Shown in pieces: positions 11,267-23,435 of a stretch of DNA of 23,435 nt. The translations under genes were made by a program, and so were the position numbers. This stretch comes from a virus, in the IMG/VR virus record IMGVR_UViG_3300028809_000069, positions 1 through 23,435 of that record; one strand, 5' to 3'. The notes under the pieces are model-generated. The model searched no databases. It saw nothing but the letters and a program-made list of their open reading frames with translations, and was not told where the DNA came from. Every line of letters starts with the position of its first letter. The first letter of the stretch is position 1.

Positions 11267-11441
11267 CGACACCGAGCAGCGCCCTTCCGAGGCGGCACTG
11301 GAGCGGGCACGGGAGGCACGGCAGGAAGCCGAAGCCCGTCAGCCCATGGTGACTGCGGTGGTGGCGAGCATCCGCCGGGCCCGGGAGGAGAACCACCTCG
11401 CCGAGCGCATCGAGGCGTTGTTCAGAGGGGCAGCAAGGTGA
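11229..11441 (+). CDS. Small basic helical protein (lysis module)
   Basis: This 70-residue product starts at GTG 11229 with GAGGAGGT 8 nt upstream, so the start is well supported despite overlapping the preceding gene by 38 bp. It has a basic N terminus (MRAWIRRRVLG), then a charged helical stretch with many Arg, Ala and Glu residues and a terminal EENHLAERIEALFRG amphipathic helix. I know short proteins of this shape next to holin genes in actinobacteriophages, but no function. There is no clear transmembrane segment; peripheral membrane binding through the basic helix is possible. It overlaps the following gene as GTGA. Confidence 0.7.
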   Translation: MRAWIRRRVLGCDDTEQRPSEAALERAREARQEAEARQPMVTAVVASIRRAREENHLAERIEALFRGAAR

Positions 11442-11764
11442 GAGATCTGAGTGCCGACCAGTGGGCGAACGTTGCGGCGTCGCTGCTGGTGGCGGTGGTG
11501 TGCGTGGTGTTCGTTGTCGTCTATCACCTGCGTACGACGTGGCGGCGGTCGGAGGTGGGCCGCAATTTGATGGCGCTCGCCGCCGCGCTCGGCGCGCTGT
11601 TCGTCTACACCGTGCTGATGACCTTGTGGCCGGACGGCAGTTTCGCGCAGGCGCTGCGGTGGGCGCGCACGGCGATCGCGGTGGTGATCGCGGGGGTGAT
11701 GGCGCAGCGCGTCCGCCTGCTGTTGAAGGCTCAGCGCGAGCACCGCGATCGAACTGGAGTGTGA
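11438..11764 (+). CDS. Three-helix membrane protein at the end of the lysis operon
   Basis: The GTG start is in a GTGA overlap with the previous stop. The 108-residue product has three hydrophobic segments, at about 11-31 (NVAASLLVAVVCVVFVVVYHL), 45-64 (MALAAALGALFVYTVLMTLW) and 73-93 (LRWARTAIAVVIAGVMAQRV), ending in a basic tail. It completes a tight four-gene set with the holin and two other small proteins. It may be a second holin or antiholin, or an envelope protein for superinfection control. It ends 8 bp before the convergent GntR-like gene, leaving no room for a separate terminator. Confidence 0.75.
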   Translation: MRDLSADQWANVAASLLVAVVCVVFVVVYHLRTTWRRSEVGRNLMALAAALGALFVYTVLMTLWPDGSFAQALRWARTAIAVVIAGVMAQRVRLLLKAQREHRDRTGV

Positions 11765-11771
11765 GCCGGTG

Positions 11772-12008
11772 CTACTTCTGCGGCAGGGTGGTGACGAAGG
11801 TGCCCACGCCCGGCTGCATCTGCGCGAGGCCGGCGGCGCGCAGCTCGGTGAGGACGCGGCGGGCGGTCATCTGCGCGATGCCGAACTCGGCCTGGATGGC
11901 GAGGACGCCGGGGAGCTGGGTGCCGGGCGGGTACGTGCCGTCGGTGATGCGCTCCTCGTAGATGGCGTACACCTGTCGCCATCGCGGTACGTCTGGCTGC
12001 CATTCCAT
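11772..12008 (-). CDS. Short GntR-type winged-helix regulator
   Basis: The minus-strand product from ATG 12008 is 78 residues, MEWQPDVPRWRQVYAIYEERI..., consisting only of the GntR DNA-binding domain. GTYPPGTQLPGV, the recognition segment FGIAQMTARRVLTELRAAGL and the wing GVGTFV are all typical. There is no effector-binding domain. A longer frame begins at ATG 12035, but that ATG lies inside a TATGAT that looks like this gene's own -10 box, so the shorter form with a very short leader is preferred. It diverges from a pair of cysteine-rich genes across a 16-bp palindrome, so autoregulation and control of that pair are likely. Similar short GntR proteins occur in actinobacterial integrative elements. 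Confidence 0.85.
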   Translation of the reverse strand: MEWQPDVPRWRQVYAIYEERITDGTYPPGTQLPGVLAIQAEFGIAQMTARRVLTELRAAGLAQMQPGVGTFVTTLPQK

Positions 12009-12030
12009 GATCGGGACGCTAGGCGGGCGG

Positions 12031-12036
12031 ATCATA
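12031..12036 (-). promoter_or_regulatory. Candidate -10 box for the GntR-type gene
   Basis: TATGAT on the minus strand lies 23 bp upstream of ATG 12008, matching five of six consensus bases. No convincing -35 hexamer is seen at the usual distance. The transcript leader would be very short and no Shine-Dalgarno sequence precedes the start. Confidence 0.4.
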
Positions 12037-12050
12037 CCGAGCGAGACGAG

Positions 12051-12079
12051 TTCGCCTGTTTCGCCTAGCTAGCTAGGCT
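12051..12079 (+). promoter_or_regulatory. Candidate promoter for the cysteine-rich gene pair
   Basis: TTCGCC (12051-12056) and TAGGCT (12074-12079) are separated by 17 bp and point toward the gene at 12171. The -10-like box overlaps the 16-bp palindrome, so a protein bound there would block it. The hexamers are weak matches; this is a proposal. Confidence 0.35.
12063..12078. promoter_or_regulatory. 16-bp perfect palindrome, candidate GntR operator
   Basis: GCCTAGCTAGCTAGGC is its own reverse complement and sits between the divergent GntR-type gene and the cysteine-rich gene. CTAG elements recur nearby (CACTAGGG at 12080-12087 and CTAGG at 12019-12023). Tetranucleotide CTAG is usually scarce in GC-rich actinobacterial DNA, making three clustered copies notable. 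Confidence 0.6.
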
Positions 12080-12111
12080 CACTAGGGCTACGCTCCGCAG
12101 TGAAGGAACTA

Positions 12112-12140
12112 CCCCCGCGACCGTGCGACCGGTCCGGGGG
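12112..12140 (+). other. Leader hairpin upstream of the cysteine-rich gene
   Basis: CCCCCG at 12112-12117 pairs with CGGGGG at 12135-12140, and GACC (12119-12122) with GGTC (12131-12134), leaving an 8-nt loop. It would sit in the 5' leader of the transcript for 12171, about 20 nt before its ribosome binding site. It could be an attenuator or an mRNA stabiliser. Confidence 0.4.
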
Positions 12141-12170
12141 CGTGGCCCACGCTGACAAAGGAGCGTCGAC

Positions 12171-12503
12171 GTGCCAGAGACTATCCACCCGCCCGCCGTA
12201 CGGACAGACGGTGTCCTCCAGCTCCCGCTGCCCGCGCTCTCCCAGCTGTCCGACCGGCAGCGCCGCGGCGCTGACTGCGCCTGGTGCCGCACAGCGCTCA
12301 CCACCGAGACGGCCGTCGACGCCGGCGAGCGGCCCGCCGTCGACGGCGGCCAGCTCTTCCCCCGCGGGTGCTGGGTGTGCGCCGCGCGGGCGGCGTACCG
12401 GCTGCTGTGGGAGCACTGCCCCGCCTGCGACGTGTGCCGGACGGACCCGTCGTGCCCGACCGCCGTCGCCGCGCAGCGGATCATGAGGCAGGGCGGGCTG
12501 TGA
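12171..12503 (+). CDS. Cysteine-rich small protein, putative zinc-binding
   Basis: The GTG start at 12171 follows AAAGGAG at good spacing. The 110-residue protein has eight cysteines in paired form: CAWC (36/39), CWVC (67/70), HCPACDVC (83/86/89) and Cys95. This suggests two metal-binding knuckles. Its N terminus (PALSQLSDRQRRGADCAWCRTAL) is of a kind I associate with small proteins of Streptomyces chromosomes and integrative elements, where it is also found near short GntR regulators. Function is unknown. It is coupled by GTGA to a second cysteine-rich gene and forms a self-contained unit with its own promoter region and downstream hairpins, i.e. a moron-like insertion. Confidence 0.8.
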   Translation: MPETIHPPAVRTDGVLQLPLPALSQLSDRQRRGADCAWCRTALTTETAVDAGERPAVDGGQLFPRGCWVCAARAAYRLLWEHCPACDVCRTDPSCPTAVAAQRIMRQGGL

Positions 12504-15764: not shown

Positions 15765-16175
15765 GTGGGCGACAGATACCGACTGCATGCCGGTGACCTG
15801 CTGCGGAGGCTGCTCGACGACCACCGCGACGACGAACCGGCGAGCGTCCGCGAACTCGCCGCCGCCATAGGGCTCAGCAAGAGCAAGGTGCAGGCCCTCG
15901 TGGACGAGGACCGGCCAACGGTCAACGGCGACGAGGCGCGGAGGGTGGCAGACGCCTACCACCTTCCCCCACGCGCTCTTTTCCACCCCGTGTCCATGTC
16001 CATGGACATGGACACCGACTCACTCACAGGCAAGGAGACAACCCGTGCCGACGGACCTGAACCCCGAGGAGCGCTCGCTCCGGGCTCGCATCGCCGTGCA
16101 CACCTCGTGGGCGAACACACTCGACCCCGCCTCCCGGACGGCGAAGGCGCGAGCCGCGGCGAACGACCGCTTTGA
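15765..16175 (+). CDS. Cro-like/early HTH regulator
   Basis: The product from GTG 15765 is 136 residues; CGGAGA lies just upstream. Residues 5-75 carry an HTH: DLLRRLLDDHRDDEPASVRELAAAIGLSKSKVQALVDEDRPTVNGDEARRVADAYHLPPRALF. This resembles the DNA-binding half of the XRE family. It diverges from the repressor, so it is the Cro counterpart by position. Residues 76-84 (VSMSMDMDTD region) are encoded by a 26-bp DNA palindrome, and the following 50 residues look like unconstrained sequence. The frame overlaps the next gene by 131 bp, which is exceptional in this genome; the functional protein may need only the first 75-85 residues. Confidence 0.7.
   Translation: MGDRYRLHAGDLLRRLLDDHRDDEPASVRELAAAIGLSKSKVQALVDEDRPTVNGDEARRVADAYHLPPRALFHPVSMSMDMDTDSLTGKETTRADGPEPRGALAPGSHRRAHLVGEHTRPRLPDGEGASRGERPL
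15990..16015. promoter_or_regulatory. 26-bp perfect palindrome built of four TGTCCA half-sites
   Basis: Two TGTCCA half-sites (15991-15996 and 15997-16002) are followed head-to-head by two TGGACA (16003-16008 and 16009-16014), flanked by G and C, making a perfect palindrome. It lies inside the Cro-like coding frame and 30 bp before the next gene's start. It may be a downstream operator or a stoperator-like roadblock; as RNA it can also fold into a hairpin. Confidence 0.75.
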
Positions 16176-19069: not shown

Positions 19070-19750
19070 ATGAGCCTGAAGGACACCGCACGCACCGTCG
19101 CGGTCCTCACCACCCTGCACGGCGCCATCGGCGACCAGCTGAAGACCGCCAAGCGCGACCTGGAGGCCGGCCTCAAGGAGGCCAAGGCCGAGACCGGCAC
19201 CCAGAAGATCGCCGTCAGCCTCGACGAAGGCCACGACATCGGCACCGTCAGCCTGGTGCAGCCCAAGGCGGCCGCCGCCGTCACCGACGCCGACGCGTTC
19301 ACCGCGTGGGTCCTCGAGAACTACGGCAGCGAGATCACCCGCCGGTTCGTCACCGAGGTCAAGCCCGGCTTCCAAAAGAAGATCCTCGACGCGCTCACGG
19401 CCGCCGGGACGGCCGAGTGGGCGGACCCGGAGACGGGCGTCATCCACGAGGTGCCCGGGGTGGCGATGCAGGGGCGGGCCGCGTACACGCGGCTGACCGT
19501 GCCGGACGTCGGGAAGGCCGCCATCGCCGAAGCGTGGCGGGAGGGCCGTCTCGGGGCTGCGATGCCGCCGGCCATCACCCCGGGCCCGGCCGAGGACGCG
19601 CCGGACGACGGCACGGTGGCCAAGATGCAGCGGGAGTTGGCCGAACTGCGGGAGCGGGACGCGTGGCTGTCCGCGCTCGAGGCCGCGGGCGTCGACAACT
19701 GGTCCGGCATGGAGTACGCCATCTCTCTGCGCGATGGCGGTGAGGACTGA
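19070..19750 (+). CDS. Conserved-looking early protein downstream of recT
   Basis: The ATG at 19070 follows AAGGAG. This 226-residue protein begins MSLKDTARTVAVLTTLHGAIGDQLKTAKRDLEAGLKEAKAE, a helical N-terminal part. A small beta segment (KIAVSLDEGHDIGTVSLVQPK) follows, then DADAFTAWVLENYGSEITRRFVTEVKPGFQKKILDAL, and a short C-terminal coiled coil (KMQRELAELRERDAWLSALE). I associate this pattern with uncharacterised proteins near recombination genes in Streptomyces phages. No nuclease motif is visible, so it is not an obvious RecE/exonuclease partner. A recombination or replication accessory role is inferred only from location. Confidence 0.75.
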   Translation: MSLKDTARTVAVLTTLHGAIGDQLKTAKRDLEAGLKEAKAETGTQKIAVSLDEGHDIGTVSLVQPKAAAAVTDADAFTAWVLENYGSEITRRFVTEVKPGFQKKILDALTAAGTAEWADPETGVIHEVPGVAMQGRAAYTRLTVPDVGKAAIAEAWREGRLGAAMPPAITPGPAEDAPDDGTVAKMQRELAELRERDAWLSALEAAGVDNWSGMEYAISLRDGGED

Positions 19751-21699: not shown

Positions 21700-22526
21700 A
21701 CATTCAGACCCTACCCGGCCTCCCCGACACCGACGAGACGACCGCCGTCGTCATCGACGTCACCCCCGAACTCGCCCGCGTCTGGCTCCGCTCCAACACC
21801 CACAACCGCCGCCTCCGCAAGCGCGCCGTCACCGACTACGCCCGCGACATGGCCGCCGGCCACTGGAACCTGAACGGCGAGGCCATCAAGTTCGCCAAGG
21901 ACGGCACCGTCCTCGACGGGCAGCACCGGCTCCGCGCGGTCATCGACGCCGACACCACGGTGCAGATGCTCGTCGTAGTCGGACTGCCCGCCGAGGCGCA
22001 GGAGACGATGGACACCGGCCGCAAGCGCACCACCGCCGACGTCATGGGCCTGCGCGGGGAAACGAACGCCGCGGTGCTGGCGTCCGTTCTGCGCCGCGTG
22101 TGGGCGTGGGACAACGGCGACACCCGCTTCTCCGGGAACTACGCGGCCACCAACAAGGAGTGCGCGCAGCTGCTCGCGGAGCGGCCGGAGCTGCGCCGCT
22201 CCACCGAGATCGCGGTGCGTACCCGCCAGGCGTTCCCGCACATCCCGCAGTCCGTCCTCGGTGTCGCGCACCACCTGTTCTCGCGGATCGACCTCGACGA
22301 GACGACGTGGTTCTTCCAGCGGGTCGGTGACGGCGCGGAACTCTCCGTCGGGCACCCGATCCTCGCTCTGCGGGCCCGGGTCACATCGGAGCGCCTCGAC
22401 AGCGTGCAGATGCCGGAGAGCCGCTACATGGCCTACCTGATCCGCACCTGGAACGCGGTGCGTGAGGGCCGCTCGCTGGACCGGCTGGTGCACCCGCCGA
22501 ACTCCGCGATGCCCACCCCGAAGTAG
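21696..22526 (+). CDS. ParB-like (DGQHRL motif) early protein
   Basis: The GTG at 21696 follows AAGGAC and overlaps the previous stop. The 276-residue protein has VTPELARVWLRSNTHNRRLRKRAVTDYARDMAAGHWNLNGEAIKF, then DGTVLDGQHRLRAV (residues 69-82). The DGQHRL motif marks the ParB/sulfiredoxin-like fold found in many phage proteins annotated as ParB-like nuclease domains, where it binds or hydrolyses nucleotides. GLPAEAQETMDTGRKRTTADVMGLRGE and a helical C-terminal domain follow. No partner parA is seen, so plasmid-type partition is unlikely. A role in phage DNA metabolism or regulation is more plausible. A perfect 16-bp hairpin follows. Confidence 0.8.
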   Translation: MNIQTLPGLPDTDETTAVVIDVTPELARVWLRSNTHNRRLRKRAVTDYARDMAAGHWNLNGEAIKFAKDGTVLDGQHRLRAVIDADTTVQMLVVVGLPAEAQETMDTGRKRTTADVMGLRGETNAAVLASVLRRVWAWDNGDTRFSGNYAATNKECAQLLAERPELRRSTEIAVRTRQAFPHIPQSVLGVAHHLFSRIDLDETTWFFQRVGDGAELSVGHPILALRARVTSERLDSVQMPESRYMAYLIRTWNAVREGRSLDRLVHPPNSAMPTPK

Positions 22527-22547
22527 CCCCCGACCCACCCGCACGGC

Positions 22548-22585
22548 CCCGGGGCGGGGGGTGCCCGCACACCCCCCGCCCCGGG
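22548..22585. terminator. Perfect 16-bp stem hairpin before the replication gene
   Basis: CCCGGGGCGGGGGGTG (22548-22563) pairs perfectly with CACCCCCCGCCCCGGG (22570-22585) around a 6-nt loop. It is the strongest hairpin in the window, placed between the DGQHRL gene and the replication gene. It probably ends or sharply attenuates the early operon. Confidence 0.8.
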
Positions 22586-22611
22586 CGACCTACCGAAGAG
22601 AGAAGCCACAC

Positions 22612-23435
22612 ATGCCCTGGTTCAAGATCGACGACGCGTCCCACAGCCACCCCAAGTTCATGGCTGCCGGGAACGCCGCACTCGGTCTGTGGCTGCGCTG
22701 CGGGGCCTACTCGGCCCAGCACCTCACCGAAGGCATCGTGCCCGGCGCCATCGCCACCCTGTACGGCACCGAGCCCCAAGCCCGGAAGCTCGTCAAGGTC
22801 GGACTGTGGCACCCCGCCGGCCACGACTGCCCCCGATGCCCGCAGCCGAACCCGGGTGACTTCGTGGTCCACGACTTCTTCGAGGGCGGCCGGAACGTCA
22901 CCCGGACCCAGCACGAGGCGAACAAGAAGGGCGCCGCCGAGCGGGCCGCGAAGAGCCGCGCCAGCCGAAAGGGCTCCCGATCCGCCGACGAATCGTCCTC
23001 GAATCGGGAGCGATTCGGAGACGAAAACTATCCGAATCGTCCTCGAAAAGACCCCCTGTTTTCGGATGGCATCGCAGGTCAGGAAGGTCTGTCACACCGC
23101 ACGCCCGCTGAAGGTGCTGCGCCTGCCCATGCCACATCCATGCCTTACCAGGTACTTCCTACGGAAGTACCTCCTCCCCCTCCCCCCTCCGAAACCAGCA
23201 GCACCACCACGGTCGAGGTCTCCGGAAGAGGAGAAGTCCAGCCGCTCATCGAAGCGATGGAAGCCCGCGGCATGCGCGTCGCCTGGAGCTTCAGCGCCGC
23301 CGAATGGCTCGAACTCCGCGACGCCGTACGACGCGCCGGCGCACCCGCCCTCGTCGACCACGCCGCCCGCGCCTGGCAAGCCGCCAAGTCCCAGCCCTAC
23401 AGCGCCAAGTACTTCCTCCGCGGCTGGACTTCTCC
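22612..23435 (+). CDS. Replication initiation/helicase-loader-type protein (3' partial)
   Basis: ATG 22612 follows GAAGAGAGAAG and the frame is open to the window's end (about 274 residues visible). The N-terminal 115 residues, MPWFKIDDASHSHPKFMAAG, NAALGLWLRCGAYSAQHLTEGIVP, ARKLVKVGLWH and FVVHDFFEGG, match the start of actinophage replication proteins in the DnaD-like/replisome organiser group. A CPRC insertion lies at 73-76. A low-complexity linker (about 118-200) is basic, then Ser/Pro-rich. A C-terminal helical domain begins near 200 (EVQPLIEAMEARG) and ends in YSAKYFLRGW, a usual ending of these proteins. It probably binds the origin and brings in helicase. Linker DNA is less GC-rich and holds iteron-like repeats. 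Confidence 0.72.
   Translation, partial: MPWFKIDDASHSHPKFMAAGNAALGLWLRCGAYSAQHLTEGIVPGAIATLYGTEPQARKLVKVGLWHPAGHDCPRCPQPNPGDFVVHDFFEGGRNVTRTQHEANKKGAAERAAKSRASRKGSRSADESSSNRERFGDENYPNRPRKDPLFSDGIAGQEGLSHRTPAEGAAPAHATSMPYQVLPTEVPPPPPPSETSSTTTVEVSGRGEVQPLIEAMEARGMRVAWSFSAAEWLELRDAVRRAGAPALVDHAARAWQAAKSQPYSAKYFLRGWTS
22989..23047. repeat. Iteron-like repeats, candidate replication origin
   Basis: CGAATCGTCCTCGAA occurs identically at 22989-23003 and 23033-23047. The shorter CGAATCG also occurs at 23000-23006, and its inverse CGATTCG at 23011-23017. The stretch is less GC-rich than its surroundings (GAAAACTAT at 23023-23031) and lies in the linker of a replication-type gene, as the lambda origin lies within gene O. 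Confidence 0.5.
23150..23172. repeat. Perfect 10-bp inverted repeat in the replication gene
   Basis: AGGTACTTCC (23150-23159) and GGAAGTACCT (23163-23172) are separated by TAC. It lies 100 bp right of the iteron-like repeats and is followed by a pyrimidine-rich run. It could be a cruciform, a protein site or part of an origin. Confidence 0.5.

Follow-up and report, generated by a model that had tools for sequence, protein, structure and literature searches.

In lambda and the Stx phages, the gene for the initiator O carries iterons and an AT-rich tract in its middle (PMC7466680), and in SPP1 the repeats of oriL lie inside gene 38, whose product gp38 is accompanied by the loader gp39 and the helicase gp40 (PMC6316719). 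For mycobacteriophages, Wetzel et al. (2020) suggested that the origin of phages with RepA may lie within or beside repA, as in lambda, and they found no repeated motifs at the RepA loci (PMC7157519). In the open-access literature we found no description of an in-gene iteron origin for actinophages, nor of the array or the hairpin reported here. The DNA that we analyzed (the window, meaning the whole stretch) is a 23.4-kb IMG/VR virus contig whose end falls inside a replication initiator gene. Very probably, the linker of this gene contains the iteron-type origin of a Streptomyces-type phage, an origin that is bound by the N-terminal domain of the encoded protein and works like lambda oriλ with O or SPP1 oriL with gp38. 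An in-gene origin is in itself of a known kind, and what is new here is the shared heptamer grammar and the hairpin.

The initiator ORF lies on the plus strand at 22612..23433, starting with the ATG at 22612, and is cut by the contig end, so that 274 aa are seen; complete homologues have about 315 aa. The original prediction had taken this gene for a phage replication initiator, and a profile search against PHROGs agrees, with residues 1-205 matching phrog_2447 'replication initiation protein' (E 2.8e-41) and a further match to phrog_30000 (E 2.4e-91). A Pfam profile search with the protein gave zero matches, and for this reason we do not place it in the lambda O family; the 7-bp palindrome on an 11-bp register described below likewise argued against membership. 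Judged by its sequence, the protein belongs among the actinophage replication initiators (PHROG 2447, the 'RepA-like replication initiator' of SEA-PHAGES records). Elsewhere in the window, the ORF at 19070-19750 has a C-terminus matching Phage_T7_Gp5_9 (RecBCD inhibitor, E 4e-13) and is joined to phrog_11955, a phage domain of unknown function, and a perfect 11-bp inverted repeat, GTGTCCATGTC-CATG-GACATGGACAC, is present at 15990-16015.

The AlphaFold2 model of the initiator begins with a confident N-terminal winged-helix domain of helices and a wing (aa 1-100, 22612..22911, plus strand), which has pLDDT >90 through most of its length and is the proposed iteron binder. A long helix (residues 98-129) leads into a disordered linker (aa 130-205, 22999..23226, plus strand), with pLDDT <50 at residues 133-147, 150-187 and 189-204, and this is followed by a helical C-terminal domain (aa 206-274, 23227..23433, plus strand, pLDDT ~93) that is incomplete because the contig stops there. 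The linker is where the majority of the cis elements described below are found. With Foldseek against BFVD, the initiator resembles a DUF1376 protein (E 3.3e-7) and a replisome organizer (E 5.3e-4). A PDB fold search with the window protein gave no significant match, and one with a Firmicutes initiator gave weak MarR-type matches only.

Inside the initiator gene, at 22978..23054, we find an array of seven 11-bp units that homologues keep. Its repeat is the palindromic heptamer CGAWTCG in a register of 11 bp, or one helical turn; the heptamer is its own reverse complement except for the central W, and its orientation therefore hardly matters. Four units are exact (CGAATCG at 22989, 23000 and 23033, CGATTCG at 23011) and three are degenerate (CGATCCG at 22978, CGAAAAC at 23022, CGAAAAG at 23044). 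The two identical 15-bp repeats of the original prediction, CGAATCGTCCTCGAA, are found exactly at 22989-23003 and 23033-23047, and its additional CGAATCG/CGATTCG copies at 23000 and 23011. Its placement of these repeats in a variable linker is borne out by the AlphaFold2 model, in which that part of the protein is disordered: from aa 123, in the last part of the long helix, the array extends into the disordered stretch. The description as lambda-style iterons stands as far as the location inside an initiator gene is concerned, but the repeated element is a palindromic heptamer in 11-bp phase, neither a 15-mer nor a 19-bp iteron as in lambda. The segment at 23000..23089, a possible unwinding region, is less GC-rich than its surroundings, as predicted (53-55% GC against ~70% upstream), and across the family the mean AT at gene nt 360-480 is 0.40-0.48 compared with 0.22-0.33 in most of the preceding domain. 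This candidate unwinding segment is moderately AT-rich; a true AT tract is absent. A host DnaA-type origin was rejected, because a cluster of DnaA boxes is absent at the site: boxes like TTGTCCACA (<=1 mismatch) number none near the array and two in the window, which is the chance level.

Could such an array arise by chance or codon usage, or as a protein-level repeat of the Glu/Ser/Asn/Arg-rich low-complexity linker? The linker protein is indeed of low complexity, and the bare 7-mer is common, with 6 matches in the window against 3.95 expected. The signal consequently resides in clustering and phasing. With <=3 mismatches allowed, the 15-mer has 5 matches in the window where 0.63 are expected, and 5 was reached by no shuffle. 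Four exact CGAWTCG in one 11-bp phase appeared in 3 of 20,000 synonymous-codon shuffles of the initiator gene, and a same-phase array of four of any palindromic heptamer in 1 of 20,000 in a second set of shuffles. A step of 11 bp is not divisible by 3, so the heptamers occupy all three reading frames, which excludes a protein repeat as their cause. Chance and codon bias are thus refuted by the synonymous-shuffle test, and the absence of any pairs outside linkers in the wider comparison below speaks against them as well, so that we assign this explanation next to no probability.

For the comparison with relatives, homologues were picked solely on protein similarity, yielding 21 non-redundant genes with the same N-terminal type. 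A first count of all 7-mers across whole genes was too blunt, and several homologues were not significant in it. Between gene nt 300 and 520, we counted 38 pairs of identical palindromic heptamers a multiple of 11 bp apart in the 21 homologues, where 200 synonymous-codon shuffles gave 1.7 on average and 5 at most; outside the linker there is one such pair in the first 300 nt and none after nt 520. In 554 kb of sequence, made up of the window and of loci from viruses, phages and bacteria, two CGAWTCG copies lie 11 or 22 bp apart 64 times in linkers and 0 times elsewhere. Linker arrays are also present in the isolated Streptomyces phages Raleigh, Darolandstone, Eastland and AxeJC, and in prophages of named Streptomyces and Kitasatospora genomes. 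The original prediction proposed that linker DNA of related phages should conserve repeats despite a diverged protein, and this is what we observe: the phased repeats are kept while the protein diverges, and the type of repeat goes with the N-terminal domain. It also named related genes that keep the protein and lack repeats as evidence against an origin. Such genes are present among the outlying members of the family: we did not see a CGAWTCG array in SF3, VWB and about 10 diverged prophage homologues that retain the initiator protein, and the array is therefore not universal in the protein family. Some close relatives (L005, L006) have degenerate variants only, possibly of the form CGGWWCCG. 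In the initiators of L005, L006 and L014, the helix-turn-helix stretch is altered (LLEGFVPKDIVKPFKG) and the heptamers are altered too (CGGWWCCG-like); from these sequences, the three are possible natural variants of the recognition code. Another relative, L050, has a second three-copy CGAWTCG array at 1937-1965, ~9.4 kb from its family initiator (11378-12319, minus strand), perhaps a second origin of the kind that SPP1 has (oriL/oriR).

The two ends of the initiator are exchanged independently of each other, and across these module swaps the iteron type appears to follow the N-terminal and not the C-terminal domain, a correlation drawn from few swaps. One homologue (L018), with 30% identity to the window protein in the N-terminal and 90% in the C-terminal domain, carries GTAACG repeats with a 12-bp spacing in place of CGAWTCG, and another (L013; 47% and 85%) has the repeat GTAGACG. 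The reverse case (L010), with 80% identity in the N-terminal and 24% in the C-terminal domain, retains CGAWTCG. Conserved words between domains that are so clearly exchanged could also mean that the linker is a recombination joint, which permits domain swapping between phages and has no role in replication. However, the iteron type switches with the N-terminal domain, and the pairing of a hairpin in the linker survives changes on both of its sides; hairpin covariation and the type switch together indicate selection on function and not on identity for recombination, and we regard a recombination joint as very unlikely. Repeats are also seen in the prophiT36-2a RepA-like gene (L316, locus 1501-2343), which has GGGGACA direct repeats ~12 bp apart in its linker; these are of note because no repeats had been reported for the mycobacterial RepA-like class of initiators.

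The hairpin, AGGTACTTCC-TAC-GGAAGTACCT, is a perfect inverted repeat at 23150..23172 on the plus strand, within the disordered stretch. It has 10 perfect pairs, and its RNA form would close with C(UACG)G, a UNCG-type tetraloop (RNA fold z -3.4). Among 20 homologues, 98.4% of cells are paired, and both sides have changed at 7 of the 10 pairs, a result found in 0 of 500 shuffles. The hairpin persists where the N-terminal domain has been swapped (L013, L018, L019), it is read in two different frames, as QVLPTEVP and as GTSSGSTP, and in most of the 8.8-kb loci the linker hairpin is nearly the sole one with arms >=9 and a loop of 3-4 nt. The loops are UAC, UUC or UCC between C and G, which makes UNCG tetraloops, and in our count from the listed hairpins 58 homologous hairpins are of the UNCG type while 2 have the opposite sense (GTA). 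This strand bias favors a role as RNA (or single-stranded DNA) over a site for a protein on double-stranded DNA, and the hairpin most likely acts as RNA; as to its role, we can guess at priming, transcript processing or translational autoregulation. Nothing in Rfam reached the gathering score in 22500-23435. An intrinsic terminator was considered and rejected, as no T tract was found.

Between the array and the hairpin sit two further motifs. The first, GCAGGTCAG at 23074..23082 on the plus strand, is kept far beyond codon need, GCAGGTCA being found in 61 of 90 homologous genes as opposed to a mean of 1.3 (maximum 5) in synonymous shuffles. The second, GTCACACCGCACG at 23091..23103 on the plus strand, corresponds in the alignment to a GTCAC..CGTGAC dyad in relatives, and GTCAC[AG].CG occurs in 66 of 90 genes (mean 3.1, maximum 7 in synonymous shuffles). 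Three homologues (L043, L053 and L067) have GTCCC..GGGAC in place of the GTCAC..GTGAC dyad, which looks compensatory. At 23172-23195 the linker has a C-rich tract, for which relatives show (CCCGA)n or (CCCCT)n, four C-runs that are G-runs on the template strand. A G-quadruplex formed by this tract was set aside, since the excess over what codon usage predicts is weak (48 of 95 genes; 34.6 expected, maximum 44).

The layout was also sought beyond the family, by scanning 2.9 million viral contigs three times for exact patterns, with three palindromic heptamers at 11 bp as the sole criterion; the families of representatives were verified by Pfam/PHROGs. Of 34 stretches with CGAWTCG at a lag of 11, 26 lie in initiators (15 in the actinophage initiator linker, 5 in the DUF1376 type, 4 in Firmicutes replisome organizers and 2 in other initiators); the remainder are 6 near-identical intergenic copies and 2 others. 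For CGTWACG at lag 11, 16 of 22 stretches are within ORFs with the architecture of the window initiator, four representatives having been checked against PHROGs, and for GCAWTGC at lag 11 there are at least 120 stretches, 66 of the 80 analyzed being in one DUF1376 cluster. At lag 12, CGAWTCG stretches fall in initiators in 34 of 54 cases, many of the lag-12 matches being protein repeats because 12 bp is four codons, and at lag 10 in up to 3 of 9. The lag 10, lag 12, CGTWACG and GCAWTGC scans were meant as controls and are not neutral, since initiators were matched in them too; the claim of a shared layout therefore rests on the location of the matches. This location suggests a layout common to several initiator families with a family-specific heptamer, reached by convergence or common descent. 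Six metagenome contigs of 56-58% GC (L037, L040, L045, L046, L047 and L055) carry near-identical CGAWTCG 11-bp arrays without a long ORF, possibly an intergenic origin or another class of site.

We also considered an intragenic operator, at which the initiator or a phage repressor controls transcription of the replication operon from the repeats while the origin lies elsewhere. Phased palindromic heptamers would suit any cooperative winged-helix binder, and an autoregulatory operator within the gene would likewise yield phased repeats. Yet the site is in the middle of the gene, and no promoter-like sequence was found in the region around the array. Moreover, the repeat type tracks the initiator's own N-terminal domain, and other initiator families also carry arrays of this kind in mid-gene at the domain boundary, where the origins of lambda and SPP1 are proven. 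On balance we think an operator improbable, and prefer the in-gene origin.

Replication from such an origin would begin with the N-terminal winged-helix domain binding CGAWTCG heptamers one helical turn (11 bp) apart, a spacing that would align several initiators on one face of the DNA. The resulting nucleoprotein complex would melt the adjacent, less GC-rich stretch (~23000-23089), and the C-terminal domain together with the product of the next gene may then recruit the replicative helicase. The annotation of the relative phage Eastland calls the next gene a DnaC-like helicase loader, and in PHROGs it is phrog_8924, for which no function is given, so that the helicase-loader step depends on the annotation of one phage. 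The downstream GCAGGTCAG, the GTCAC motif and the UNCG hairpin may belong to one cassette with the array and serve in regulation or priming. We advance more tentatively, leaning slightly toward doubt, the broader idea that tailed-phage replisome organizers of different phyla share one origin grammar, in which palindromic heptamers about one turn apart are dual-coded in the linker behind a winged-helix domain that sets their sequence, and to which the actinophage cassette adds a UNCG RNA hairpin acting in initiation (for example, in primer formation, transcript processing or autoregulation of the initiator).

A palindromic heptamer in 11-bp phase behind the winged helix of an initiator is enough, from the sequence itself, to locate candidate origins in different phage families, and these candidates are possible parts for vectors in Streptomyces and mycobacteria. 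Because each domain type comes with its heptamer, nature supplies a data set on the recognition code, and the hairpin within the initiator gene is an element that is open to synonymous mutation.

Compared with the known systems, the window resembles ori-lambda of lambda and the Stx phages (PMC7466680) in that its putative iterons sit midway through the initiator gene, in a linker between the predicted DNA-binding and partner-binding domains, with an A+T-richer neighbor; it differs in its 7-bp palindromes on an 11-bp register, whereas lambda has 19-bp imperfect inverted-repeat iterons and an AT tract. SPP1 oriL/gp38 is alike in that repeats and an unwinding region (in the window, a candidate one) lie in the initiator gene, where in SPP1 they act with a loader and a helicase and here would do so. 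SPP1 has a second origin ~13 kb away, and the likeness seen is one of layout. The mycobacteriophage RepA loci differ from the window in that no repeats were reported there, while a phased array is evident here. The DUF1376 proteins (PF07120), the Firmicutes replisome organizers (phrog_6251/1701) and DUF6291 share arrays of palindromic heptamers at 10-12 bp directly after the N-domain. They show no link to the window family at the level of blastp, and each type has its own heptamer (CGAWTCG, CGTWACG or GCAWTGC).
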